NCBI RefSeq assembly: GCF_000243275.1
Contig: NZ_CM001437.1
Span: forward strand, 3,526,642 to 3,590,641
Length of the DNA stretch: 64,000 bases
Direction: 5' to 3'
Source: Myroides odoratus DSM 2801
Lineage (GTDB): Bacteria; Bacteroidota; Bacteroidia; Flavobacteriales; Flavobacteriaceae
The notes beneath the pieces were generated by a model that was given only the letters and a program-made list of their open reading frames with translations, ran no database searches and was not told the DNA's origin. Shown here piece after piece: positions 7,572 to 19,868 of the stretch; the stretch's first letter is position 1, and the number at the start of each line of letters is the position of its first letter. The translations under genes were made by a program, and so were the position numbers.

Positions 7572-10214
7572 ATGAAAATATTCCACTTGTTTTGGCTGTT
7601 GCTACTTCCTTTATTCGCGTTTGCGCAAAAACCCTTTGTAGGCGTATGGAAAACAAATAAGAGTAAAATTGAAATTTACTTAGAAGGAACCTATGCCTAC
7701 AGTTGGGAAAATATAAATGAATCTGATATGACAGGTGAAGGAAGTGGTGTAGATGTCTTACATCTCGATTTACCTAAAGAAGGAGAATACCGCATTCAAT
7801 TGACACCTGTTGGACCTGTTCCGCTTCATCGCTTGTACCCCAAACAGGTCGAAAAACAAGGGGTAGAAGGAAATAAAAAAATAAAACGAAGTGAATGGGA
7901 GAAACAAGAGAAAGAGAAGGATTGGATTTCCTTTTATTTTCCTTTAGAGGTGCAACTCATGGCGATAGAGCAGTGGGGAGATGTTTGTTGGAGTACAATG
8001 AAAGATGCGTTTAAGGGAGATAATAGTTTACGTGTATTAGCCACCGATTATCCCAACTTGAGTCAAGTTAGAGATATGTCCTATATGTTTTCAGGGATAA
8101 AACACAACCGAAGCATCTCTTTTGAGGCGTCAATTGCCCACTGGGAGGTGGGAAATGTCGTGAACATGGAAGGACTTTTTAAAAATACCTCTAATTTTAA
8201 TCAACCTTTAACGCATTGGGATGTCAGTCAGGTAACCAATATGTCCTATATGTTTGCAGAAGCGAAAGCTTTTAATCAACCTCTAGACTATTGGGATGTC
8301 AGTCAGGTGACCAATATGTCTTATATGTTTACAGAAGCGAAAGGTTTTAATCAACCCCTAGACCATTGGGATGTGAGTCGAGTTACCTCAATGGAAGGAA
8401 TGTTTAGTCGTAGTAATTTTAATCAACCTATAGGCAATTGGCAGGTGAATCAAGTGGTGAATATGAAGCGAATGTTTTTTTATACTGTCGCCTTCAATCA
8501 GCCATTGGATACTTGGAAGCTCGAAAGCTTGACGCAATTAGACGGAATGTTTCAATGGGCAAAGGTCTTTAATCAGCCTCTAAATAACTGGGATGTGAGT
8601 CAGGTCACTTCCATGAATAACTTGTTTGAAGGAGCTGCTAATTTCGATCAATCCTTGGACCACTGGGATGTCAGTCAGGTTACTTCCATGAATTCTCTAT
8701 TTAAGGGGGCTTCTAGTTTCAATCAATCTCTTGAAAATTGGGATGTGAGTCAGGTAAAGGATATGGGGTATATGTTTTATGATGCCTCTCGTTTTGATCA
8801 ACCTTTGGATCGATGGAAGGTGCATGGTGTTGTCAGTATGAAAGGAATGTTTAGTTGGGCTTCGAATTTTAATCAACCGCTCAATAGTTGGGATGTAAGT
8901 CAGGTCACTACAATGGAAGATATGTTTAATCTGGCCCTTCAATTTAATCAACCTTTAGATCAATGGAAAGTGAGTCAGGTAAAGAATATGTCGACTATGT
9001 TTCAGTCGGCCTATCGTTTTAATCAACCTCTGGAAGCTTGGGATGTAAGTCAAGTGGAACAGATGAGAAATATGTTTGCAGAATCAAAAGCTTTTAATCA
9101 ACCGTTAAATCATTGGAAGGTTGATCGTGTAATTACGATGAATCGCATGTTTTACAAGGCACTTTCTTTCAATCAGCCTGTGGATCAATGGGAGGTAAGT
9201 CAAGTGATGAATCTCAGCGAGATGTTTTGGGAAGCTACTTCATTCCAACAGTCTTTAGATGATTGGATTGTAAATAAATTCGCTAATGTGGGGGAGGTGT
9301 TTGGGTATACAAGAGAACAGCCCAAATGGAAGATAATCAAGCCTTTAGCTAATAAAGATTCTTTTCAAACCATTTGGGAGATTAAGGGAAATAAAGAAGC
9401 TGAAAACGAGATTATTATGGATGTAAGCGGCGAGTATATTTATCAATGGGAACATGTAGATAATCCAGCGTGGTATGGAGGAGGAATAAAAACCGATAAA
9501 TTAGAATTAAAACTAAAACTACCAGGTACAGGTAAATACCGTATATCACTTATTCCGTGGGGGGATGAGCCTTTGCATCAAATTTCTCAAGTAAGTCGAT
9601 CATCAGATAGAATGGCTAGACCTTTCCCAGGAGTGTCCAGTACTGTAGTAAGAAATCTTAGTCCCAATAGAGGAAAATTAATCAGCATTGAACAATGGGG
9701 AAGTGCGGTGTGGAGTACCATGAAGAATGCCTTTGTTTATTGTAATCTATCCATTAGAGCTCCAGATCTTCCCAATTTAAGTCAAGTGACTTCTATGGAT
9801 AGTATGTTTTATTATAGCACTATTTTCTGTAGGAGAATTAATGAATGGGATGTAAGCCATGTTGTTTCAATGACGGAAATGTTTTATGGATCGAGTTTCA
9901 ATCAACCCATAAACCATTGGAACGTGAGTCAAGTAACGGATATGGCAGGGATGTTTCAAAAATCAGATTTTAATCAATCTTTAGTACAATGGAATGTCAG
10001 TCAGGTGACAGATTTGTCTTATATGTTTGCAGAATCAAAAGCTTTTAATCAACCGTTAGATAGGTGGAAGATTAATAAAGAAGCAGATGTATCCTATATG
10101 TTTGCTGGAGCGAAAGCTTTTGATCAATCGTTAGCTTCTTGGAATTTGAATCAAATGCAACAGCAAGCGAATATGTTTTTAGATGTTCCAATAGAGGAAG
10201 ACAAAGCGTTTTAA
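7572..10214 (+). CDS. BspA-like secreted protein with DUF285 repeats, 880 aa
   Basis: A clear signal peptide (residues 1-18, ending FAFAQ) is followed by two copies of one architecture. Each begins with a short beta domain: residues about 20-100 with GTYAYSWENI and GEYRIQLTP, and about 585-690 with GEYIYQWEHV and GKYRISLIP. A run of 25-26-residue DUF285 repeats follows in each (consensus FNQPLDHWDVSQVTNMSYMF). The first block has about sixteen repeats and the second about seven. This repeat family occurs in surface proteins and lipoproteins of Bacteroidetes and Mycoplasma and is linked to host or surface binding. There is no T9SS C-terminal domain or lipobox, so how it is retained is unclear. 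Repeats are visible at DNA level (about 78 bp), which allows slippage or recombination to change length. It has no partner genes in the same direction. Confidence 0.9.
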   Translation: MKIFHLFWLLLLPLFAFAQKPFVGVWKTNKSKIEIYLEGTYAYSWENINESDMTGEGSGVDVLHLDLPKEGEYRIQLTPVGPVPLHRLYPKQVEKQGVEGNKKIKRSEWEKQEKEKDWISFYFPLEVQLMAIEQWGDVCWSTMKDAFKGDNSLRVLATDYPNLSQVRDMSYMFSGIKHNRSISFEASIAHWEVGNVVNMEGLFKNTSNFNQPLTHWDVSQVTNMSYMFAEAKAFNQPLDYWDVSQVTNMSYMFTEAKGFNQPLDHWDVSRVTSMEGMFSRSNFNQPIGNWQVNQVVNMKRMFFYTVAFNQPLDTWKLESLTQLDGMFQWAKVFNQPLNNWDVSQVTSMNNLFEGAANFDQSLDHWDVSQVTSMNSLFKGASSFNQSLENWDVSQVKDMGYMFYDASRFDQPLDRWKVHGVVSMKGMFSWASNFNQPLNSWDVSQVTTMEDMFNLALQFNQPLDQWKVSQVKNMSTMFQSAYRFNQPLEAWDVSQVEQMRNMFAESKAFNQPLNHWKVDRVITMNRMFYKALSFNQPVDQWEVSQVMNLSEMFWEATSFQQSLDDWIVNKFANVGEVFGYTREQPKWKIIKPLANKDSFQTIWEIKGNKEAENEIIMDVSGEYIYQWEHVDNPAWYGGGIKTDKLELKLKLPGTGKYRISLIPWGDEPLHQISQVSRSSDRMARPFPGVSSTVVRNLSPNRGKLISIEQWGSAVWSTMKNAFVYCNLSIRAPDLPNLSQVTSMDSMFYYSTIFCRRINEWDVSHVVSMTEMFYGSSFNQPINHWNVSQVTDMAGMFQKSDFNQSLVQWNVSQVTDLSYMFAESKAFNQPLDRWKINKEADVSYMFAGAKAFDQSLASWNLNQMQQQANMFLDVPIEEDKAF

Positions 10215-10698: not shown

Positions 10699-11673
10699 TT
10701 AAAGTTCGATATTCCATTTAGGAGGAAAAAAATAATCTATATGACTGTTGTCTGGTTTATAAATCTGTTTAATACGTGTGCGGTTAGATAAACCGTTAAT
10801 ATCTGGATGTGCTACTCTAGAATACTTATCTACTTCACAGAATAGGTTTTGACAATCTATAAGTTGAAGTTTCCTTCCACCTAATGTTTTAAAGTCTAAA
10901 TTCTGTATCTCAAATTGTTGTTCTTGAATATCACACATATACATTATGATATCTTCAAATGTATAATCTCCATAATCATAAAAACATTTTCTAATACCAT
11001 CTTTTGCCCCTGGACCAGCTTTTACAAAATCCATTTCACTGAAGTTAGTTAGCTCACTATAATTTATATCTATAGTATATTGATAAGCTAAAAAACTACC
11101 AAAAGTAGGTGTCTCTAAAAGCGCTTTATATACTTCTTCCATATTTCTTGCATTTTCAATACAACTCAATAACTTACCATTTTGTACGTATTTTCTCAAT
11201 AGTTCTAGATGATTTTCATGTTTAAAAGTATGTCCAAATATACTTTTACCTGAAGTCATAATATATGCACCAGAGTATATAACTTCTTTAGCTTCTTTAG
11301 CCTCTGTAAGTAATCTGCTATATAATTGTGAGTCAAAATTATTTAACGTAATATCACCAAAATGGGTCTCTAGTAACTCCCACGTAGATATTTTATTGAA
11401 AATTTTGAACAATAGTATACGAAATAAAAGGTCATTTTGGGTATATGTTGTACCTTCTTTATAAATAACATTACGGATTAAATATTGACTAACACGATCA
11501 GAAGCGCGATAAACATTTGTAAAACGATGACGATCTAAAATGGGATCTTCTGTTAGCGGAATAATATTATTAATTTTATTAAAAAATACTTCTTGTCGTT
11601 TGGTAGCAAACTTCCAATATGTATCAAAAACTATACTTTTTTTGGGTTTATTTAATTTTTTAATTATTTCCAT
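10699..11673 (-). CDS. Putative DNA-base hypermodification protein (aGPT-Pplase/HMUDK-helical-like), 324 aa
   Basis: Last gene of the nine-gene TIR/SLOG operon. ATG at 11673 is preferred over the in-frame TTG at 11679. Conserved blocks, in order: KPKKSIVFDTYWKFATKRQE (residues 10-28), FTNVYRASDRVSQYLIRNVI (51-70), FRILLFKIFNKISTWELLE, FGSFLAYQYTIDINYSEL (191-208), the helix-hairpin-helix-like AGPGAKDGIRKCF (219-231), LIDCQNLFCEVDKYSRVAHP (271-290) and RTRIKQIY. I recognise this as the family associated with phage thymine/hydroxymethyluracil hypermodification (alpha-glutamyl/putrescinyl thymine pyrophosphorylase and 5-hmdU kinase helical domains), whose members resemble HhH DNA glycosylases. 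The expected role is acting on a modified base or nucleotide. It could be an enzyme on host DNA or a recogniser of modified phage DNA (inference). A hairpin separates it from the upstream gene. Confidence 0.75.
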   Translation of the reverse strand: MEIIKKLNKPKKSIVFDTYWKFATKRQEVFFNKINNIIPLTEDPILDRHRFTNVYRASDRVSQYLIRNVIYKEGTTYTQNDLLFRILLFKIFNKISTWELLETHFGDITLNNFDSQLYSRLLTEAKEAKEVIYSGAYIMTSGKSIFGHTFKHENHLELLRKYVQNGKLLSCIENARNMEEVYKALLETPTFGSFLAYQYTIDINYSELTNFSEMDFVKAGPGAKDGIRKCFYDYGDYTFEDIIMYMCDIQEQQFEIQNLDFKTLGGRKLQLIDCQNLFCEVDKYSRVAHPDINGLSNRTRIKQIYKPDNSHIDYFFPPKWNIEL

Positions 11674-11681
11674 AAACAATA

Positions 11682-11706
11682 AAAGCTGGAAATTAAATCC
11701 AGCTTT
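11682..11706 (-). promoter_or_regulatory. Intercistronic hairpin (attenuator or processing site)
   Basis: Perfect 9-bp stem AAAGCTGGA / TCCAGCTTT (11682-11690 with 11698-11706) with a 7-base loop, inside the only sizeable gap of the operon. On the minus strand it is followed by TTTTATTGTTT and then the ATG at 11673. It could be a leaky terminator lowering expression of the last gene, or an mRNA-stabilising structure. Confidence 0.5.
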
Positions 11707-11728
11707 ACTATATAAAATGTTATTTTGA

Positions 11729-12301
11729 TTAATTCAATTTTTCAAATTTAATTGTTTTATTTGTTGTGTCAAATAAAACTTGTCCTCCTTTATAAAGTAA
11801 AAGTAATCTGAAAACTCTATACGACTCATAGATTGCCTTTTTCCAATCATCAATAGTTTTTGATTGAACTTCAAATGGAGTGGTCATCTCTTTAATTATA
11901 GCAAGCAAATCTAAATCAATATCTTCAATGTTTTTGAAAAAATCTTTATTTTTAGCTCGGCTAAAAATCATTAAAGAAATACATTCTTCTGTAATAGCCG
12001 CTCTAGCACCATCTTCTATTCTATCTATATCGAAATCACTTTTTCTTTTTCTTTTCATCATTGAACGAGTACAAGGTGACCAGTCTAACATAGCGGCAAA
12101 TGTAAAATGAAAAATATCATGATAGCGATATCCATCATGGGTATAGGAATTATCATCTATAGTATCACCAACCTGAATATTATCTAAAGTAACTTTTACT
12201 TGAGGGTAGTTTAAACAATTATACTCCTCAAATCTTACTATAAAGTTTTGAGGTAAGTTTTCATTTTTATATAAGCTTGTATGTTTATTATTGCTTAACA
12301 T
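11729..12301 (-). CDS. MazG-C-like NTP pyrophosphatase, 190 aa
   Basis: All-alpha NTP-PPase-like protein. The segment YRYHDIFHFTFAAMLDWSP (residues 58-76) is followed by a basic loop MMKRKRKSD and then IEDGARAAITEECIS (95-109). The His/Asp and Glu-rich positions (His61, Asp62, Glu96, Asp97, Glu105, Glu106) match the metal-binding helices of the MazG C-terminal family (MazG_C-like). Enzymes of this superfamily hydrolyse (d)NTPs to NMP and pyrophosphate; MazG proteins also lower ppGpp. The ATG at 12301 lies inside the end of the dCTP-deaminase-like gene (14-bp overlap), so both are translated from one message. The likely role is removal of a nucleotide or signal within the operon (inference). 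Substrate unknown. Confidence 0.75.
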   Translation of the reverse strand: MLSNNKHTSLYKNENLPQNFIVRFEEYNCLNYPQVKVTLDNIQVGDTIDDNSYTHDGYRYHDIFHFTFAAMLDWSPCTRSMMKRKRKSDFDIDRIEDGARAAITEECISLMIFSRAKNKDFFKNIEDIDLDLLAIIKEMTTPFEVQSKTIDDWKKAIYESYRVFRLLLLYKGGQVLFDTTNKTIKFEKLN

Positions 12302-13139
12302 CTTTAGAATAAACTTTTTTTAAAGAGTCTTGTTTGTACAAAGATAAAAAAATTCTCTCTAACTTATCTAATCTTTCATTAGTTATTTTGTTTTCAATAC
12401 TTTTAACCCCTTCATTATAAGCATTAATATCTTTACCTTTGTTTATCCAAAAGGCTATATTAAGTGTTACTAATAAAGTAATACCTATAGAAACAGCCCA
12501 AAGTACTTTTTCGTTTTTTAGAGAGTTAGTATTTTCAACGCTTGCTATTTTATTTTCATTTAGTTTTATTTTCGATAAAAGCTCATGTGGAGATGCAATT
12601 TCACCATTAATTAATGGTGATGTATATTTCGAATCAATACTATTTTGATTTTGATGAGAGTTGTTTTTATAAATATACTCTTCACCTAAAGGGTTTTTTA
12701 ACTCGCTAAACCAAATCAAAAAATATTGTTTCCCTTTAGTTAATTGAATTTTAGAAGGACTAGCGTTATAAACTGAAAAAAGTAATTTGCCTTTAAATCC
12801 TGGGTCAACATGGAATCCTGATACATTTATTAAACCTTTTAGTTTCTCAGTAGCTTTAATTGAAATAAAACCTAACAAATTATTTGGTACTTTGACGACT
12901 TCCTCAGTTAATAGTAAAGCGAATTGCCCTGGATTAATCGTAATAACATCATTCTTATCATCTAAATATGTTTTAATTTTATTTTCATTATCTGTCAAGT
13001 ATACTTCATTTCCAAGACTTAATTCGTATGAAGCTTGTTTTATTCTACTAGGTTTATAATTGCATTTGTGTTCATCATTCAGTATAATTTTCCCATATAC
13101 TAATAATCGTGCTAAATCTTGTCCTCCAATAAATGCCAT
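12288..13139 (-). CDS. Membrane-anchored dCTP deaminase/dUTPase-fold protein, 283 aa
   Basis: Residues 1-150 follow the dCTP deaminase/dUTPase trimer fold: ASYELSLG (36-43), INPGQFALLLTEEVVKVP (68-85), VSGFHVDPGFKGKLLFSVYN (106-125) and LTKGKQYFLIWFSEL (133-147). In E. coli Dcd the catalytic Glu lies in the strand after DPGxxG (LEFYN); here that position is Ser122 (FSVYN), so cytosine deamination looks unlikely. The protein then has a polar linker, one transmembrane helix (about 213-231, VLWAVSIGITLLVTLNIAFW) and a helical tail. A deaminase domain held at the membrane is unusual for a metabolic enzyme and suggests a sensor or effector. It starts 2 bases after the SLOG gene stop and overlaps mazG by 14 bases. 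Standalone phage-defence dCTP deaminases are known, but they keep the catalytic residue. Confidence 0.8.
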   Translation of the reverse strand: MAFIGGQDLARLLVYGKIILNDEHKCNYKPSRIKQASYELSLGNEVYLTDNENKIKTYLDDKNDVITINPGQFALLLTEEVVKVPNNLLGFISIKATEKLKGLINVSGFHVDPGFKGKLLFSVYNASPSKIQLTKGKQYFLIWFSELKNPLGEEYIYKNNSHQNQNSIDSKYTSPLINGEIASPHELLSKIKLNENKIASVENTNSLKNEKVLWAVSIGITLLVTLNIAFWINKGKDINAYNEGVKSIENKITNERLDKLERIFLSLYKQDSLKKVYSKDVKQ

Positions 13140-13141
13140 AT

Positions 13142-14071
13142 TTAAACCTTAAATTTATTTAGTCCTTTCATTAATAAATACATTATTTGATGGATATTTT
13201 TACTTGTAAATAATACCTCATTTTCTTCTTCACTCAGTCCATTTAATTCAGACAAATTTTTTACGTCGAATTTTGACAACTCTGCTTTTAATACATCATA
13301 GTCTGTATAGTCACATTTAGAACTAACGTAATCTTTAAACTCACTTAAAAAACTTGTATCGTATTGAAAATCATTTGTCAATTCCTTGACTTTTTCTCCT
13401 TTAATAAGTTTAATTAATCTTTCAGTTGCTCCACCAAATGCTCCAACCAAATATAGGGGTTTATTGTCTTTCAATGTGTAAAGGGCCTCTTCAATAACAC
13501 CAGGTATATACCCCAGATAATTTTTGATTTTACCTCCAACTATTATTCTTGCCGTACAATCTTTAGCCATTTGGATTCTCATTTCTTTAAAACACTCAGA
13601 ATAAATGTATCTATGCTCAAAATTAGTTTTAGGATTATAACTTATGTTATAATCTATATTTAAACCCTTTGGAGGAATAACTTCATTTATTTCGATATTT
13701 TTGGATAGGAAATGAATTCTAGTACCTTGTGTTAATCCTTTTGTATTAGGGAAAACAAAATAATTGACAAATCCAGAAGTTTCATCATCCATTCTTTTGT
13801 ATTGATTTGATAGTTCTGAAAATAACGTAGTAAAACCATTTTGTCTTAAATCTCCACCATATAAAGCTTTCCCATCATTAGCAATTATATACCTGGCAAT
13901 TTCAATAGTAATATCATTTAAATGTTGGATAGTGAACCCTAATTTTTCTAAATCTTCATTTTCGGATACTGATATTGCAATTGATTTATTTGTTAAAAAC
14001 TTTTTTTTAATGCGTTTAATTTGCTCCTTTTCTACTGTTTTCTGTATTCCCGAAGTATTGATTTCTTCCAT
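13142..14071 (-). CDS. SLOG-superfamily nucleotide-binding protein, 309 aa
   Basis: ATG at 14071 is chosen over the TTG at 14083; with it, the gene starts 2 bases after the stop of the upstream TIR gene. The N-terminal half has the SLOG pattern: a strand KSIAISVSENEDLEKLGF (residues 29-46), helix HLNDITIEIARYIIAN, then the glycine-rich GKALYGGDLRQNGFTTLF (67-84). A second Rossmann-like part follows: ARIIVGGKIKNYLGYIPG and PLYLVGAFGGATERLIKLI. This looks like SLOG cluster 2 (LD_cluster2). SLOG domains bind nucleotide-derived ligands; in Thoeris ThsA the SLOG domain senses the cyclic ADP-ribose product of the TIR protein. A product of the neighbouring TIRs is therefore the natural candidate ligand (inference). 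No SIR2, macro or transmembrane effector domain is attached. Confidence 0.75.
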   Translation of the reverse strand: MEEINTSGIQKTVEKEQIKRIKKKFLTNKSIAISVSENEDLEKLGFTIQHLNDITIEIARYIIANDGKALYGGDLRQNGFTTLFSELSNQYKRMDDETSGFVNYFVFPNTKGLTQGTRIHFLSKNIEINEVIPPKGLNIDYNISYNPKTNFEHRYIYSECFKEMRIQMAKDCTARIIVGGKIKNYLGYIPGVIEEALYTLKDNKPLYLVGAFGGATERLIKLIKGEKVKELTNDFQYDTSFLSEFKDYVSSKCDYTDYDVLKAELSKFDVKNLSELNGLSEEENEVLFTSKNIHQIMYLLMKGLNKFKV

Positions 14072-14073
14072 TT

Positions 14074-15258
14074 TTAATAGCAATTTAAATTTGTTGGTGT
14101 CGTGAAATTTATTTTTTCATCTAATTCGTTTAAGATATCTAACTCTTCTATACCAAGAGGAGGGTCAGGATATAATACAATTAATTGCTTGTCATCAGTT
14201 GATATTTTTTTTATGTGAACATAATTGAATAATTCAGGAGGAGATGAAATTCCTAACACACTGTATTGATCAGTATTTATTAATTTTGAATATTGCTCTA
14301 GAAGTAATAATTGATATCTATTATTTAGTACTTGATATAATGTTAAATTAACTATTCTGTAAAATGATACAACTTCATCATCTATTAATACTGTTGTTGG
14401 CATATTTCCTAAATAGGGAAACGCTCTTCTTTCTCCCTTCCTAATATTATTAACTACAACAATTGGTGATTTAGACTTCTTGGCAAGTAGAACTTCTCGT
14501 CTACACCATTCTCTGTCAGAGTATTCATCTGTTTGAAAAACCACAAGTGCTGACTTTGTTATTTCTTGCTCAAATTGAGCATCAAATTCGTAACCATTAG
14601 CAATATCAACAGTGTCAAAAAATACATCAAGTTTTAAATTATGCTCAATAAATCTTTTAAATTTGAGGGCAATTTCTTCCCCATCTTTCTTTGCATGACT
14701 TAGGAATAATTTTACTGGCGACCCTATTCGTTGACTTTCTTTATCTTCTTGTTTATCTTGAAAATTCCATATCAAACGGCTTAGATCGTGAAGAAGTTCG
14801 CTTTTAATTTTATTAATACATTTTTCTTGATCAGCAGATTTATTAATATTAAGAGGGTCTCCAAAATATTTGATTGCATCAGTAAATTGAAGTTTATTTA
14901 ATCCGCAATTTATATTGTACGCATGCTCAAAAAGTTTGATAGGGAAAATTCTATTACTATCATTTGCCTGTTTAACAATTTCACGAGTATAATTTTTTAA
15001 ATGATCATCTAAAAAATATTCTTCGTCTATTAAAAGTATAATAGCATTCTTTTCTGCATCATTATAATTAATTGAGAGAGGCATATTATCTTCCAATTTT
15101 ATAAATCTAAAATAAACTGGAATATTAAGCCCTCTAGATAATGGATTATTAAAATCTCTACAAAAGGCTGTGTATAGTTCTTCTGCAATTGTCTTTCCAA
15201 AACCAAAATTAGGATGCCAAATTACATAGATATTTAAGGGATATTTAAAATCTTTCAT
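14074..15258 (-). CDS. Two-TIR-domain protein, 394 aa
   Basis: The second domain is a clear TIR: KLFLSHAKKDGEEIALKFKR (residues 183-202), LDVFFDTVDIANGYEF, ALVVFQTDEYSDREWCRREV (237-256) with the catalytic-position Glu255, and PIVVVNNI. The first domain (residues 8-110: NIYVIWHPNFGFGKTIAEEL, IILLIDEEYF) keeps the TIR-like strand order but lacks an obvious catalytic Glu in WxxxE form, and may be a regulatory or degenerate TIR. The C-terminal 110 residues are a helical and beta extension without a known family. TIR domains in bacterial immunity cleave NAD+ or make ADP-ribose-type signals. The gene overlaps the upstream DUF3892-TIR gene by 14 bases and is 2 bases from the SLOG gene, so TIR and SLOG products are probably made together. 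Confidence 0.8.
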   Translation of the reverse strand: MKDFKYPLNIYVIWHPNFGFGKTIAEELYTAFCRDFNNPLSRGLNIPVYFRFIKLEDNMPLSINYNDAEKNAIILLIDEEYFLDDHLKNYTREIVKQANDSNRIFPIKLFEHAYNINCGLNKLQFTDAIKYFGDPLNINKSADQEKCINKIKSELLHDLSRLIWNFQDKQEDKESQRIGSPVKLFLSHAKKDGEEIALKFKRFIEHNLKLDVFFDTVDIANGYEFDAQFEQEITKSALVVFQTDEYSDREWCRREVLLAKKSKSPIVVVNNIRKGERRAFPYLGNMPTTVLIDDEVVSFYRIVNLTLYQVLNNRYQLLLLEQYSKLINTDQYSVLGISSPPELFNYVHIKKISTDDKQLIVLYPDPPLGIEELDILNELDEKINFTTPTNLNCY

Positions 15259-16033
15259 TTGTATTTTCTTTCATTTGAAGTCTAGAGTTATCTCTAGCAT
15301 CATAGTTAGTATTTCTTTTTTCAAATGCAAGCTCAATATACTCCTGCATTTTTACTCTATCATATGTCCAATCTCGGATGATTGCATAATCACTTTCAAG
15401 GTTATCAGAAAGTCTAGCAGGGATTAAGCTGGAGTGGTAAGTTTCTTTTTTAAAGTCAGGATGAGTAGGTAAAAGTATACCTAAAATTCCTGCACATTTA
15501 TCTCCAACTTTAGGATTTAAAGCCCCAGATATTTCCCAATCAATGTGTTTTCGATATTTTGTGTTTGGTCCAATTAATACAATTAAGACTGTAGTATCAG
15601 CTAAAAAACCCTTCTGGATCAATTGCTTTATATATCCATCAGAATTATCAGGATTAATATCACCATCTTCAACAGATTTATGAATTATTAAATCACTAAA
15701 TAAATTCTTAAATTCCTCTTTATACTTTTGATCATCGTGATGGTAATAACTTATAAATGTCTTTCTTTTAACAATGTTTTTTGGAACAACTTTCCAACTA
15801 AATATTTTTCCATCATATGAAAAATCACCTATTTTACTCCAATCACCTCCTTTATTTTTCTTAATAGAACAAAGCGTTTTTCCCAACAATACCTCTTTAA
15901 CCATCCAGCTTCTATCCTGTTCATAAGATTGGTCAGATATGGCATCGCCATGGTCGTTATGATAGATTATATTATCAATGAACCCATTTTCATTCAAAGA
16001 TAGTTTAGTAACACAGTAATCTGCCCATTTCAT
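15245..16033 (-). CDS. DUF3892 + ThsB-type TIR fusion, 262 aa
   Basis: Residues 1-85 (MKWADYCVTKLSLN, MVKEVLLGKTLCSIKK, GDWSKIGDFSY) match the small DUF3892 fold. A TIR-like domain of the MTH538/DUF1863 type starts near residue 91: RKTFISYYHHDDQKYKEEF, a DGDI loop, then TTVLIVLIGPNTKYRKHIDW with Glu167. This is the TIR family of Thoeris ThsB, which makes cyclic or His-linked ADP-ribose signals on infection. DUF3892 may act as the trigger-binding part, giving this TIR its own specificity (inference). ATG at 16033 is 2 bases from the upstream TIR gene. Confidence 0.75.
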   Translation of the reverse strand: MKWADYCVTKLSLNENGFIDNIIYHNDHGDAISDQSYEQDRSWMVKEVLLGKTLCSIKKNKGGDWSKIGDFSYDGKIFSWKVVPKNIVKRKTFISYYHHDDQKYKEEFKNLFSDLIIHKSVEDGDINPDNSDGYIKQLIQKGFLADTTVLIVLIGPNTKYRKHIDWEISGALNPKVGDKCAGILGILLPTHPDFKKETYHSSLIPARLSDNLESDYAIIRDWTYDRVKMQEYIELAFEKRNTNYDARDNSRLQMKENTNERF

Positions 16034-16035
16034 AA

Positions 16036-16578
16036 TTAATAATTTTCAGTAATTAAACTATCCATTACAGTTAATAATGGATTAGTAGCATTTCTATAAT
16101 TAAATGTTTTTTGACTTTCAAAAAGTTGCACCATCTTTTCATCTATATTATTTGAAATAAATTCATTAATATCATAAATATCTCTAATAATAGTAGCAGA
16201 TCTTACATACTCAGGTAATCCGCCTTTATCAATTCCTTTTAAGCATAAAACATACAAATCTGTTTTATCATGTCCGTAGCCTATTTCAAAAGGTACCCAA
16301 TTAGAATGTAACGTATTTGGTGAAACTAATACTATCATATGTGAGCTATTATTTATTCCTTTTTTAATAGAATCAGTAACAGCTTTAGCATTATTAGACT
16401 GATGATGAATCTTTAAGTCGTTATCATAGGCATCGAAATAAACATCTATTCCTGAATCTATAAAATAATCTGCAATTATCTTTGCTGCATCTTTGTCTTT
16501 TTGTTGGTGAGATATAAATATGCATTTTACTCCAGAATACAAAATCTTGTTTCTAGTGCCATATCGGTTTAAAGCCAT
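16036..16578 (-). CDS. TIR-domain protein, 180 aa
   Basis: A single compact TIR: CIFISHQQKDKDAAKIIADY (residues 19-38), GIDVYFDAYDN, a helix that includes KAVTDSIKKGINNSSHMIVL, VSPNTLHSNWVPFEIGY with Glu98 at the NADase position, and LYVLCLKGI. No other domain is present. ATG at 16578 immediately follows the TAA of the Nmad2 gene (16579-16581), so translation is likely coupled. It probably hydrolyses or transforms NAD+ when triggered. Whether it is a signal maker or a direct killer cannot be told from sequence. Confidence 0.85.
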   Translation of the reverse strand: MALNRYGTRNKILYSGVKCIFISHQQKDKDAAKIIADYFIDSGIDVYFDAYDNDLKIHHQSNNAKAVTDSIKKGINNSSHMIVLVSPNTLHSNWVPFEIGYGHDKTDLYVLCLKGIDKGGLPEYVRSATIIRDIYDINEFISNNIDEKMVQLFESQKTFNYRNATNPLLTVMDSLITENY

Positions 16579-17199
16579 TTAGAATAATTTTATTTGTTTG
16601 TAAGTTTCCCAATGTATTGGGATGTCAATTAAACCACAACCAAAGTCTTCAGTTATTTTAGTTATTAATTCAAGCGCTAAGTCTTTGTTAATAACTGTTT
16701 TGTAGTCTCTATCTATTACATTATTAGAAGGACATAACTCTGAATATTTGGTAGGTACTTTCCATGTTTTTTTTCCAAAATATGTAAATGTATTAGAAAT
16801 TAAGACGTACTTTCCGCTTAGATCTTGTTTTTGATTTTTTATGTTAGCTTTTCCATCATAATCACTATGGTGAGAATCTAGTTGTACCCATTCATTGTTT
16901 TCATTATTATAAATATTATCACCATGTATTTGTTTTAAGCTTCCATTTAAAACTGGTTTTTTATTTTGGAATCTAGGGTCTTGCCAATACTCTTCAAATG
17001 TCATTTTTTCAGTTATTTTCATTATAAAAATAATATGGTATAATAGATTTATTTCAACTGAACCAGTTCCAATTATCCAATCGCCAACAGAAGCTTTCCG
17101 TCTTAAATGTGGTTTACAACATGCTAATGTGCAATACTCCCCAAATGGATTTGGAGCAAAACCATAATCACGAGTCATTTTGTATGAAAAGATATTCAT
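16579..17199 (-). CDS. Nmad2-family putative nucleotide modification protein, 206 aa
   Basis: Strong match to the family known as nucleotide modification associated domain 2: FSYKMTRDYGFAPNPFGEYC (residues 4-23), TLACCKPHLRRKASVGDWII (24-43), MTFEEYWQDPRFQNKKP, IHGDNIYNN, WVQLDSHHSDYDGKANI. Cys23, Cys27, Cys28 and the His110/His111 pair could bind metal. Nmad proteins were predicted, by gene neighbourhood, to participate in DNA base modification or nucleotide chemistry; no biochemical role is shown by sequence alone. The start overlaps the stop of the leading TIR gene by one base (TAATG). In this operon it is paired with the base-hypermodification-like protein at the other end. Confidence 0.8.
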   Translation of the reverse strand: MNIFSYKMTRDYGFAPNPFGEYCTLACCKPHLRRKASVGDWIIGTGSVEINLLYHIIFIMKITEKMTFEEYWQDPRFQNKKPVLNGSLKQIHGDNIYNNENNEWVQLDSHHSDYDGKANIKNQKQDLSGKYVLISNTFTYFGKKTWKVPTKYSELCPSNNVIDRDYKTVINKDLALELITKITEDFGCGLIDIPIHWETYKQIKLF

Positions 17200-17681
17200 T
17201 ATTGACAGCTAATTCTATTAACATGATTTACAGGTGTTCTGGGAGTTCCATTTGAGTTACACCACCCTACATCTTTTCCTTCTATGGCGTCTATTATTTT
17301 TTCAGAGTTCCAGCCAATTAAACCATCTCCGAATTTCTCCAAATTTTCAGGAATATCTGAGTCTTTCCCTCCATGCATGAACACACCTATAATTCTTTTA
17401 CCTAACTTAGCAGCTTGTTCGATTTCCCAATTTACCCACTTTCTAGTATGAGTTTGAGATCCAATTAAAACAATTACAGTACCTGCCCAACGCATTTTCA
17501 TCCGTAATAGCCTCTTTAACGTTTGCTCAGGTATTTGTTTTTTATTTAATCTATCTTGATTTTTAGGATTAGCTCTTATAGAACTATTTCGAATACCATA
17601 GTCTTTCCCTGATAAAAGTTTTGTAAAGTTCGTAACTGCATCATCATCTTTATGATGGTGACTAATAAAAACATTTTTCAC
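17199..17681 (-). CDS. ThsB-like TIR protein (DUF1863 type), 160 aa
   Basis: First gene of the operon. The start is GTG at 17679-17681 (no in-frame ATG upstream), and it opens directly at the first TIR strand (KNVFISHHHKDDDAVTNF). Further motifs: the SSIR loop, a helix QTLKRLLRMKMRWAGTVIVL, IGSQTHTRKWVNWEIEQAAK with Glu86, and RIIGVFMHGG. These match the MTH538/DUF1863 TIR family of Thoeris ThsB in length and order. ThsB proteins sense phage and synthesise an ADP-ribose-derived messenger. No ThsA gene (SIR2-SLOG or TM-macro) is present nearby; the SLOG, DCD-fold and MazG-like products are the candidate receivers. Confidence 0.85.
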   Translation of the reverse strand: MKNVFISHHHKDDDAVTNFTKLLSGKDYGIRNSSIRANPKNQDRLNKKQIPEQTLKRLLRMKMRWAGTVIVLIGSQTHTRKWVNWEIEQAAKLGKRIIGVFMHGGKDSDIPENLEKFGDGLIGWNSEKIIDAIEGKDVGWCNSNGTPRTPVNHVNRISCQ

Positions 17682-17810
17682 TAATAAAAATATAAAATTA
17701 ATAAAAGATAAATATACTTAATATTAACATAATAAACTAAAAGAAAAATGTGAGACTATTATAAAACTGAGGGAGGTTTATAATTACTTAATAATTAAAA
17801 GATAATTTAA

Positions 17811-17891
17811 TTATTGGGTACACTCTTTTTCAATCTCCCAAGTCAACCTAGCCCCCAAAGCATCCTTATATTTGATTAAAAGAAATTTGGT
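17811..17891 (-). pseudogene. Possible 3' remnant, 26 codons
   Basis: Minus-strand frame ending in TAA at 17811 encoding a polar tail that includes KYKDALGARLTWEIEKECTQ. It is closed upstream by TGA at 17892-17894. It sits between the divergent genes at 17681 (-) and 17894 (+) and has no start. It could be the end of a gene cut off when the accessory region was inserted; this is weak evidence. Confidence 0.2.
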
Positions 17892-17893
17892 TC

Positions 17894-18367
17894 ATGTTGG
17901 ATGTGAAAACTTTAGTTACAATCGCTCTTCCTATTTTGGGAGCTATTATAGGTTATTTTATAAAATCTTCAATAGATAAAAAACAAGCACTTTTATCTGA
18001 AGTTTCAAAAGAACGAAGAGAACATTATCAAGGATTTGTTGACTTAATGATTGAACTATTTAGCAATACAAAATCTGGAAAAAAAACTCCTGATAATGAG
18101 TTGGTGTTAAAATTATACACATTTTATAAAAAGTATATTTTATATGCTTCTCCTAAAGTTATCAATAGTTTCTCAGACTATTTTCAATACTTGTATAAGT
18201 ATAGTGAAAATAACGGTGTAGTAGATTCAAATGTACAATTGAGAAAGCTTACTAGAGTAATGATGGCGATGAGAACTGATTTAGGGTTGTCAAATAAGAA
18301 TTTAGAAAAGGATGGAGAGAAGATTTTGCGTGCCTTATTAAAAGACTTTGATGATATAATTAAATAG
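17894..18367 (+). CDS. Membrane-anchored hypothetical protein, 157 aa
   Basis: One N-terminal transmembrane helix (residues about 7-24, TLVTIALPILGAIIGYFI) is followed by a basic stretch and a soluble helical domain (EHYQGFVDLMIELF, YKKYILYASPKVINSF). This organisation resembles many uncharacterised helical membrane proteins found beside conflict systems. It is divergently placed next to the TIR operon with 212 bases between, so the two could share regulation. It ends at a terminator shared with mnmE. No known family identified. Confidence 0.65.
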   Translation: MLDVKTLVTIALPILGAIIGYFIKSSIDKKQALLSEVSKERREHYQGFVDLMIELFSNTKSGKKTPDNELVLKLYTFYKKYILYASPKVINSFSDYFQYLYKYSENNGVVDSNVQLRKLTRVMMAMRTDLGLSNKNLEKDGEKILRALLKDFDDIIK

Positions 18368-18432
18368 AATATACGCTTCTTTTCACATATATCACTGACA
18401 TCTTAAAAAACATAATCCCTTAAGAATAATAA

Positions 18433-18455
18433 AAAAACGCCCATAAGGCGTTTTT
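18433..18455. terminator. Bidirectional intrinsic terminator
   Basis: Stem AAAAACGCC (18433-18441) with GGCGTTTTT (18447-18455), 5-base loop. It lies between the convergent ends at 18367 (+) and 18477 (-). Confidence 0.8.
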
Positions 18456-18476
18456 ATACTATATGAGTAAAGTAAC

Positions 18477-19868
18477 TTATTTACCAATACAAAAATTAGC
18501 AAAAATATTCCCCAGCAACTCATCATTTGTAACCTGACCCGTAATTTCCCCGAAGAAGTAGAGTGCCTGGCGAATATCGATAGCCATAAGATCCGCGGAG
18601 AGATTCGTTTGCAGTCCCCATTTCACCTTTTCGATTTCCTCCAGTGCTTTCAGGAGTGAGTCGTAGTGGCGTGTATTCGTTACGATTGTTTCATTATTGC
18701 GTAGCGCCCCTGTGTTTACAAAGCCGAGTAGCGTCTGTTTCAGTTCCTCAATGCCTAGGTTGGCCTTGGCTGACATCAACATTAAGTTGTCAATTTTCGA
18801 CTGAATCAAAGCAATTTGTTCCGCAGAGAGTAAATCTTGCTTATTACAAACCACGAGAAGCGGTTTAAGCGGATATTTATTCTTTAATTTCTCCAGTTCG
18901 ATATTGATTTGTTCAATCGATTGGTTTGTTAACTGCCCTCCGTCAATCAAGTAGATCACCACTTGAGCCGCTTCAATTTTCTCGAAAGTCTTTTGAATAC
19001 CGATGCTTTCCACGACATCTTTCGTTTCGCGGATTCCAGCCGTATCAATGAATCGGAAACCGATTCCGTCGATGACCAATTCATCCTCAATCGTATCACG
19101 CGTAGTTCCTGCGATATCCGATACAATTGCACGTTCCTCATTTAGAAGAGCATTCAATAAAGTCGATTTACCCACATTAGGTTCCCCTACAATCGCAACC
19201 GGAATACCATTTTTGATTACATTTCCAACCGCGAAAGAATCGATTAAGCGTTTCAGGACAAATTCGATGCGATCAATCAGCGCTTTAAATTGCGTGCGAT
19301 CAGCAAATTCCACATCCTCCTCAGAGAAGTCCAATTCCAATTCAATCAGCGAAGCAAAATTGAGCAGTTGTTCCCGTAACAAAGCGATTTCATTCGAGAA
19401 ACCACCGCGCATTTGCTGCATGGCAATTTGGTGACTAGCCTCATTATCCGAAGCAATTAAATCCGCCACCGCTTCCGCTTGAGATAGATCTAATTTGCCA
19501 TTCAAGAACGCACGCATGGTAAACTCACCCGGTTGTGCCATTTTAGCCCCCTTTCGAAGGCAGAGCTGAATGATTTGCTGTTGGATGAAGGTTGAGCCGT
19601 GGCACGAAATTTCAATCGTGTCCTCACCCGTATAAGAATGCGGGTTTTTAAATACTGAAATCAAGACCTGATCCAGTACACGTTCCCCATCCACAATATG
19701 ACCAAGGTGAAGCGTATGCGTTTTTTGTTTCGTTAAATCTTTGTTTTTGATCGATTTAAAGATGCCGTTAACTAATGTAATAGCGTCTTTTCCCGATACC
19801 CGTATGATGGCAATGGCACCCGCACCCGAAGGAGTAGCTAAAGCGACAATAGTATCTTGTAATATCAT
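18477..19868 (-). CDS. mnmE: tRNA modification GTPase MnmE, 463 aa
   Basis: With MnmG, MnmE forms the 5-carboxymethylaminomethyl group on uridine 34 of certain tRNAs. The N-terminal tetrahydrofolate-binding domain starts MILQDTIVALATPSGAGAIA. The G domain has G1 GEPNVGKSTLLNAL, G2 TTRDT, G3 DTAGIRET and G4 NKQD. The C-terminus ends with the catalytic FCIGK motif. Length and order are normal for the family. Base composition is visibly richer in GC than the TIR operon to its left, so the accessory region probably ends at about 18400. A perfect -7 box lies upstream. Confidence 0.98.
   Translation of the reverse strand: MILQDTIVALATPSGAGAIAIIRVSGKDAITLVNGIFKSIKNKDLTKQKTHTLHLGHIVDGERVLDQVLISVFKNPHSYTGEDTIEISCHGSTFIQQQIIQLCLRKGAKMAQPGEFTMRAFLNGKLDLSQAEAVADLIASDNEASHQIAMQQMRGGFSNEIALLREQLLNFASLIELELDFSEEDVEFADRTQFKALIDRIEFVLKRLIDSFAVGNVIKNGIPVAIVGEPNVGKSTLLNALLNEERAIVSDIAGTTRDTIEDELVIDGIGFRFIDTAGIRETKDVVESIGIQKTFEKIEAAQVVIYLIDGGQLTNQSIEQINIELEKLKNKYPLKPLLVVCNKQDLLSAEQIALIQSKIDNLMLMSAKANLGIEELKQTLLGFVNTGALRNNETIVTNTRHYDSLLKALEEIEKVKWGLQTNLSADLMAIDIRQALYFFGEITGQVTNDELLGNIFANFCIGK

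Follow-up and report, generated by a model that had tools for sequence, protein, structure and literature searches.

How Thoeris-like TIR systems recognize infection is largely open, and one such system reportedly senses a capsid. TIR-SLOG antiviral systems are treated in general terms in PMC9503650, and the phage pathway of thymidine hypermodification is described by Iyer 2013 and Lee 2018, as cited in PMC6449724. The main text of the DefensePredictor study (PMC13092281), in which the word TIR does not occur, describes validated E. coli defense systems whose components include a 5-hydroxymethyluracil kinase and a thymidylate synthase, names MazG, MazG-C, aGPT-Pplase, dUTPase and NMAD among predicted, unvalidated defense domains, and credits Burroughs 2015 with earlier predictions of several such domains. 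Here we describe an operon of Myroides odoratus DSM 2801 that lies in a 64,000-nucleotide stretch of contig NZ_CM001437.1 (positions 3,526,642 to 3,590,641; hereafter the window) and in which these elements meet: a TIR/SLOG pair resembling type III Thoeris, a second pair made up of a TIR and Nmad2, two more TIRs, and three genes related to nucleotides or bases. We consider it possible, though short of probable, that this operon is an abortive-infection alarm that responds when thymine- or uracil-type bases of an unusual kind appear in phage DNA or the deoxynucleoside triphosphate (dNTP) pool.

Gene content of the operon

Nine minus-strand open reading frames (ORFs), g1 to g9, span positions 10699 to 17681 of the window (Table 1), and their coordinates were checked. 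The gaps at the successive junctions from g1 to g9 measure -1, 0, 2, -14, -10, 2, -14 and 49 bases, the sole wider gap lying ahead of g9 and being occupied by a terminator-like hairpin. An earlier note on this DNA had described nine minus-strand genes with eight tight junctions of at most 49 bases, and both statements proved correct. Its gene labels agree with Pfam (E 1e-62 or better for g2, g6, g8 and g9) for the ThsB-type TIR, Nmad2, the TIRs, SLOG, DCD, MazG-C and HMUDK; two were not confirmed, namely DUF3892 in g4, which has no such Pfam match at E <= 0.1, and a double TIR in g5, where Pfam finds a single TIR, the N-terminal half being weak and its equivalent Glu not conserved among relatives. 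The real start of g9 is probably the ATG two codons in, giving 324 amino acids.

Table 1. Features of the operon, with positions in the window
Feature	Position	Strand	Evidence
g1, TIRa, ThsB-type TIR, partner of Nmad2	17199..17681	-	Pfam ThsB_TIR 80.6 bits; PADLOC ThsB 188.8 bits
g2, Nmad2, predicted PUA-like (YTH/EVE-like) modified-base reader	16579..17199	-	Pfam Nmad2 218.7 bits
g3, TIRb	16036..16578	-	Pfam TIR_2 48.2 bits; ThsB_TIR also matched
g4, TIRc, N-terminal extension and ThsB_TIR	15245..16033	-	Pfam ThsB_TIR 65.2 bits, residues 93-190
g5, TIRd, ThcB4-like TIR paired with SLOG and often fused to it	14074..15258	-	Pfam TIR_2 41.4 bits, residues 185-268
g6, SLOG LD_cluster2, proposed signal receiver	13142..14083	-	Pfam 257.1 bits
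g7, DCD-fold, one C-terminal transmembrane stretch (residues about 212-230)	12288..13139	-	Pfam DCD 55.8 bits
g8, MazG_C domain without N-terminal MazG	11729..12301	-	Pfam MazG_C 212.6 bits
g9, HMUDK_hel protein, related to proteins of phage thymidine hypermodification	10699..11679	-	Pfam HMUDK_hel 332.2 bits
Terminator-like hairpin, g8/g9 gap	11682..11706	-	Fold z-score -2.44

Two gene pairs recur across bacteria

A scan for relatives of the SLOG protein, with one genome per species, gave 185 confirmed stretches, and the gene content of the best 80 loci was analyzed with iterated profiles over all ORFs; some of these loci are cut by contig ends, L027 and L028 look near-identical, and L037 and L039 show the same pattern. 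By their record titles the 80 loci span Bacteroidota, Planctomycetota, Pseudomonadota, Myxococcota, Chloroflexota, Bacillota, Actinomycetota and others. TIRd is fused to SLOG in 48 loci and adjacent to it in 31 (module A; together in 79/80), and at least two TIR ORFs occur in 73/80 clusters. Nmad2 is present in 31/80 loci and is immediately preceded in all 31 by an ORF of the TIRa class (module B), TIR classes being the best single-sequence score against the four window TIRs; in L046 and L067 the called TIRa and Nmad2 ORFs share more than 200 bases. HMUDK_hel is found in 29 loci and MazG_C in 24. Of the 80 loci, 28 contain both Nmad2 and HMUDK_hel, 3 only Nmad2, 1 only HMUDK and 48 neither, an association (p 4e-17) that serves only as a guide, the loci being related. 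Gene order varies among groups (e.g., L004, L007, L022 and L047).

All four window TIRs retain a glutamate which, from its position, we take to be the catalytic residue, and class members keep it as well: TIRa Glu86 in 34/34, TIRb Glu98 in 43/43, TIRc Glu167 in 71/71 and TIRd Glu255 in 79/81. The recurrence, the fixed pairings and the conservation of this glutamate across the 80 loci led us to reject a chance neighborhood. The earlier note had made recurrence elsewhere a test of its proposal, and most of the genes are indeed found together in other genomes. An even sample of 296 genomes from the phylum, the Myroides genome itself among them, has HMUDK_hel in 5, Nmad2 in 11, LD_cluster2 in 6 and type III Thoeris ThcA in 5; these are accessory genes.

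HsdM- or HsdR-like genes are present in 16/80 loci and flank SLOG on both sides in 12 (Pfam check for L027 only); this flanking is seen with and without module B, and the two do not significantly exclude each other when module B is compared with type I restriction (p 0.26). The 12 loci in which the TIR-SLOG cluster is thus embedded in type I restriction genes are L011, L014-L017, L027, L028, L033, L040, L053, L062 and L063. At L038 (7780-9981), the neighbor of SLOG is a TIR protein that carries a KGGVGR-type AAA ATPase domain at its N terminus.

Nucleotide-related genes are exchanged among sister loci

Among the 29 HMUDK loci, 22 carry MazG_C, 6 carry thymidylate synthase, none carries both, and a radical SAM gene is found in 1 (L032). 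Pfam confirmed the thymidylate synthase of L046, L120, L127 and L128, and a profile built from these recognized it in the others; its full-length rows keep the catalytic Cys and the Asn typical of enzymes acting on deoxyuridine monophosphate (dUMP). Because MazG_C and thymidylate synthase do co-occur outside SLOG loci (L128, L086 and L087), their exclusion is limited to the latter. The order HMUDK, thymidylate synthase, small ORF, TIR, Nmad2 is found in a genome without LD_cluster2 (G063). Besides thymidylate synthase, the additional genes of sister loci encode thymidylate kinase, O-methyltransferase and radical SAM proteins.

Nmad2 matched 16 plasmid records, of which 12 were examined and 11 of these are annotated. 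An annotated TIR gene immediately precedes Nmad2 in 8 of the 11. Six carry an annotated NTP pyrophosphohydrolase and a uracil-DNA glycosylase (UDG), with no HMUDK match plasmid-wide; the Cupriavidus UDG scores 27.0 bits by Pfam (cut-off 24.3), and MazG_C was Pfam-checked in Cupriavidus and Beijerinckia. Three carry HMUDK: Gloeothece (with MazG), Parabacteroides (with radical SAM) and Sinorhizobium (with thymidylate synthase and a TylF-type methyltransferase). UDG and HMUDK occur together in 0/11. The same UDG is found in L067, a SLOG locus with Nmad2 and MazG_C and without HMUDK, while L066 has neither UDG nor HMUDK. On the Gloeothece plasmid (L180, 114-4660), HMUDK, MazG, TIR and Nmad2 lie beside a CBASS-type phospholipase, which suggests a swapped effector. 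A cyanobacterial and Rhizobium plasmid module with no TIR in the stretch comprises HTH, ImmA/IrrE, thymidylate synthase, HMUDK and MazG (L086, 6819-10914; L087, 1741-6058).

Predicted properties of the base- and nucleotide-related proteins

The AlphaFold model of Nmad2 (pLDDT 88.8) matches mostly YTH, EVE and ASCH structures (Foldseek, best 50 of 148 rows and a second listing of 50 rows); its predicted fold may be reader-like, as would fit the modified-base role foreseen for Nmad2. Foldseek places DrmAB of DISARM first among the matches (E 0.011). The EVE family was found in 0/31 genomes of relatives, and Nmad2 has no tblastn match in 50,697 phage records. For its partner g1, solved ThsB and ThsB1 structures were matched. 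In another genome of the phylum (L124, 1924-3383), Nmad2 is followed by Nmad3, with no TIR hit within the 5.5 kb contig.

HMUDK_hel is the helical domain of aGPT-PPlase and the 5-hydroxymethyldeoxyuridine (5hmdU) DNA kinase. The g9 protein scores 187.7 bits against phrog_2396 and has tblastn matches in 414 of the 50,697 phage records, all under 60% identity, many of them from phages of Salmonella, Vibrio, Klebsiella, Microbacterium, Escherichia and Pseudomonas. Some of the matches are annotated as pyrophosphorylase, one as 'Alpha-glutamyl/putrescinyl thymine pyrophosphorylase clade 1', and one adjoins thymidylate synthase and glycosyltransferase genes; the Salmonella and Pseudomonas phages include ViI- and M6-like hypermodified phages. 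The Pfam scan found no P-loop kinase domain in g9, and one hhalign test of HMUDK_hel against endonuclease-III-like proteins (three passing a crude motif filter, none from a MutY-size set) gave no result. The nearest named relatives of g9 come from Myroides.

The C-terminal stretch of g7 has a hydropathy of 2.14. Aligned to solved dCTP deaminases, g7 has Ser122 at the position of the catalytic Glu; the aligned 4xjc sequence has Glu there, and Ser replaces it in 120/120 DCD homologues listed, the window's own included. The protein scores 81.8 bits against TIGR02274, below the cut-off of 92.8, and a gene for such a transmembrane DCD protein occurs in 0/80 SLOG loci. Thus, the DCD-fold member that the earlier note had counted in the set is no general part of it and is missing the deaminase glutamate. 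For g8, the Pfam scan found no MazG domain; all 24 MazG_C ORFs of the 80 SLOG loci are longer than g8 (292 amino acids or more), and a MazG domain precedes MazG_C over the cut-off in L002 and L007 and just under it in L062. The MazG part of the profile matches solved dCTP pyrophosphatases and MazG proteins. The g8 protein has no tblastn match in the 50,697 phage records and a weak match (22.8 bits) to the phage MazG-like family phrog_229.

Genomic setting

The operon has a G+C content of 28.7%, versus 36.7% in the window from 18,477 onward, and it is situated beyond the 3' end of mnmE. In the 11 of 12 relatives where the DNA that follows mnmE is readable, it is different; by eye, ORFs there are integrase-like in five and HsdR-like in one, and mnmE 3' ends resemble an insertion hotspot. 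With 3 mismatches, 19 bases at the mnmE 3' end (18477-18495) are repeated in direct orientation at 18056-18074; as an attachment site this direct repeat was unconvincing, with one extra match where 0.23 were expected. Flanking DNA (17700-18470) was matched in 19 of 150 same-genus genomes, all matches being short except the window's own. An 880-amino-acid protein with seven DUF285 stretches adjoins the operon (7572-10214).

Proposed mechanism and alternatives

The constant pairs (TIRd-SLOG and TIRa-Nmad2), together with swaps that fall mostly in deoxyuridine and thymidine chemistry, suggest a sensor of unusual pyrimidines feeding a TIR-SLOG alarm, every functional step of which is inferred. In such a scheme, g9 would engage an unusual pyrimidine, a place that the uracil-DNA glycosylase may take in sister loci, and Nmad2, whose fold is predicted to be YTH/EVE-like, would recognize the altered base and thereby activate TIRa, its partner. 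Each TIR has the presumed catalytic glutamate, and together they could then convert NAD+ to ADP-ribose-type signals; SLOG would receive the signal and unleash TIRd, leading to NAD+ depletion and arrest of phage growth. Deoxyuridine-type nucleotides might be handled by MazG or MazG_C, by thymidylate synthase or, in the present operon, by the DCD-fold membrane protein, so that the host itself does not trigger the alarm. A broader claim, which we regard as somewhat unlikely, is that the operon belongs to a base-composition immune sensor in which a TIR is wired to a YTH/EVE-like reader and deoxyuridine/thymidine enzymes and relayed via a Thoeris-type TIR-SLOG pair, and in which replacement of HMUDK_hel by UDG, or of MazG by thymidylate synthase or a DCD-fold protein, tunes the base that is sensed. 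If true, base chemistry would be a trigger of TIR immunity, acting via a TIR tied to a predicted reader, an HMUDK_hel relative or UDG, and nucleotide enzymes; Nmad2, MazG_C and HMUDK_hel, whose names derive from sequence context and not from tested function, would gain a context.

Phages write bases with relatives of HMUDK and of thymidylate synthase, and sister loci have possible tailoring enzymes, which gives rise to the main rival: the nucleotide module may make a modified thymine-type base that marks DNA, with Nmad2 and the TIRs discriminating marked from unmarked DNA, as in restriction-modification with an NAD-depleting effector. The HMUDK_hel relatives in phage records, many from Salmonella and some from Pseudomonas phages, and the thymidylate synthase, thymidylate kinase, O-methyltransferase and radical SAM genes of sister loci speak for such a writer; however, the window operon is without thymidylate synthase, kinase or tailoring enzyme, and the UDG found on six plasmids without HMUDK removes a base and does not write one. 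We regard this reading as unlikely. We judge it also unlikely that two systems, one a Thoeris-like TIR-SLOG system and the other a nucleotide system of Nmad2 and HMUDK, travel together in a defense hotspot with no common signal, as might be supposed because either module occurs without the other and because of the variable, partly integrase-bearing sequence after mnmE; on the other hand, eight of the nine genes are joined by gaps of at most 2 bases, the modules are kept together across phyla despite reshuffled order, and module B has a TIR of its own.

The earlier note had brought up nucleotide depletion, a reading in which DCD-fold and MazG-type proteins would destroy dNTPs upon infection while the TIRs signal or drain NAD+. 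The family names, the MazG domain of the L002 and L007 homologues and the match of the MazG part to dCTP pyrophosphatases are consistent with it, but g7 falls short of the deaminase model and has Ser in place of Glu, its gene is absent from the other SLOG loci, and dNTP depletion is weakly founded because the MazG_C protein g8 has no MazG domain. The idea is very improbable, and Ser122 and the absence of MazG led us to reject it as the main mechanism here.

Comparison with known systems

The operon resembles phage thymidine hypermodification (5hmdU DNA kinase, aGPT-PPlase) in its g9 homologue and differs in that g9 is bacterial and coupled to TIRs and Nmad2; the Pfam scan found no dUMP hydroxymethylase (thymidylate synthase family) or 5hmdU kinase in the operon. 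The E. coli systems in the main text of PMC13092281 (5hmdU kinase, thymidylate synthase, dNMP kinase and NMAD), phage-validated there, have 5hmdU-kinase, thymidylate-synthase and NMAD relatives in the sister loci, a comparison of domain names alone that implies neither a shared operon nor close kinship. The earlier note had called the system undescribed. In the literature searched, which was without Burroughs 2015 and Iyer 2013, we found no description of the gene set combined with type III Thoeris-like modules; the word needs care, though, as several of the domains are already predicted as defense in PMC13092281.

With type I and II Thoeris the operon shares the ThsB-type TIR g1 and SLOG as the likely receiver. 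Type I differs by its SIR2-SLOG ThsA and type II by its transmembrane-macro ThsA, whereas neither a SIR2 nor a macro domain was found in the nine proteins (Pfam, E <= 0.1). The likeness to type III lies in several TIR genes and a SLOG gene within one operon and a TIR of ThcB4 size (g5) adjoining SLOG (g6); the differences are that the window SLOG is LD_cluster2, whereas ThcA (Cupriavidus) is LD_cluster3, and that a nucleotide/base module is added. Against NCBIfam ThcB4 (NF058526), g5 scores 46.7 bits over the TIR stretch and does not reach the cut-off of 220; g6 has no NCBIfam match at E <= 0.1 to ThcA (NF058525, cut-off 110 bits), and its own genome has 0 ThcA matches. An hhalign comparison of LD_cluster2 with ThcA gave 19.8% probability (E 0.0012) and a short shared motif stretch around GG and GGA.

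Loci around ThcA matches (L115-L119) served as comparison. On plasmids of Beijerinckia, Cupriavidus and Sulfitobacter, module B adjoins curated ThcB4 (417, 477 and 388 bits, respectively) and ThcA (225, 252 and 216 bits), although a single gene intervenes in Sulfitobacter; at two more loci, Sinorhizobium and Mesorhizobium (TIR only), the cut-offs are not reached. Because module B adjoins ThcB4 and ThcA on plasmids, while g5 and g6 miss the curated models, the operon is like type III Thoeris by parts and pairing yet, by those models, not a member of it. The Thoeris-type logic of TIR and SLOG that the earlier note had proposed is accordingly borne out as a resemblance by domains and by the neighboring ThcA/ThcB4 loci.

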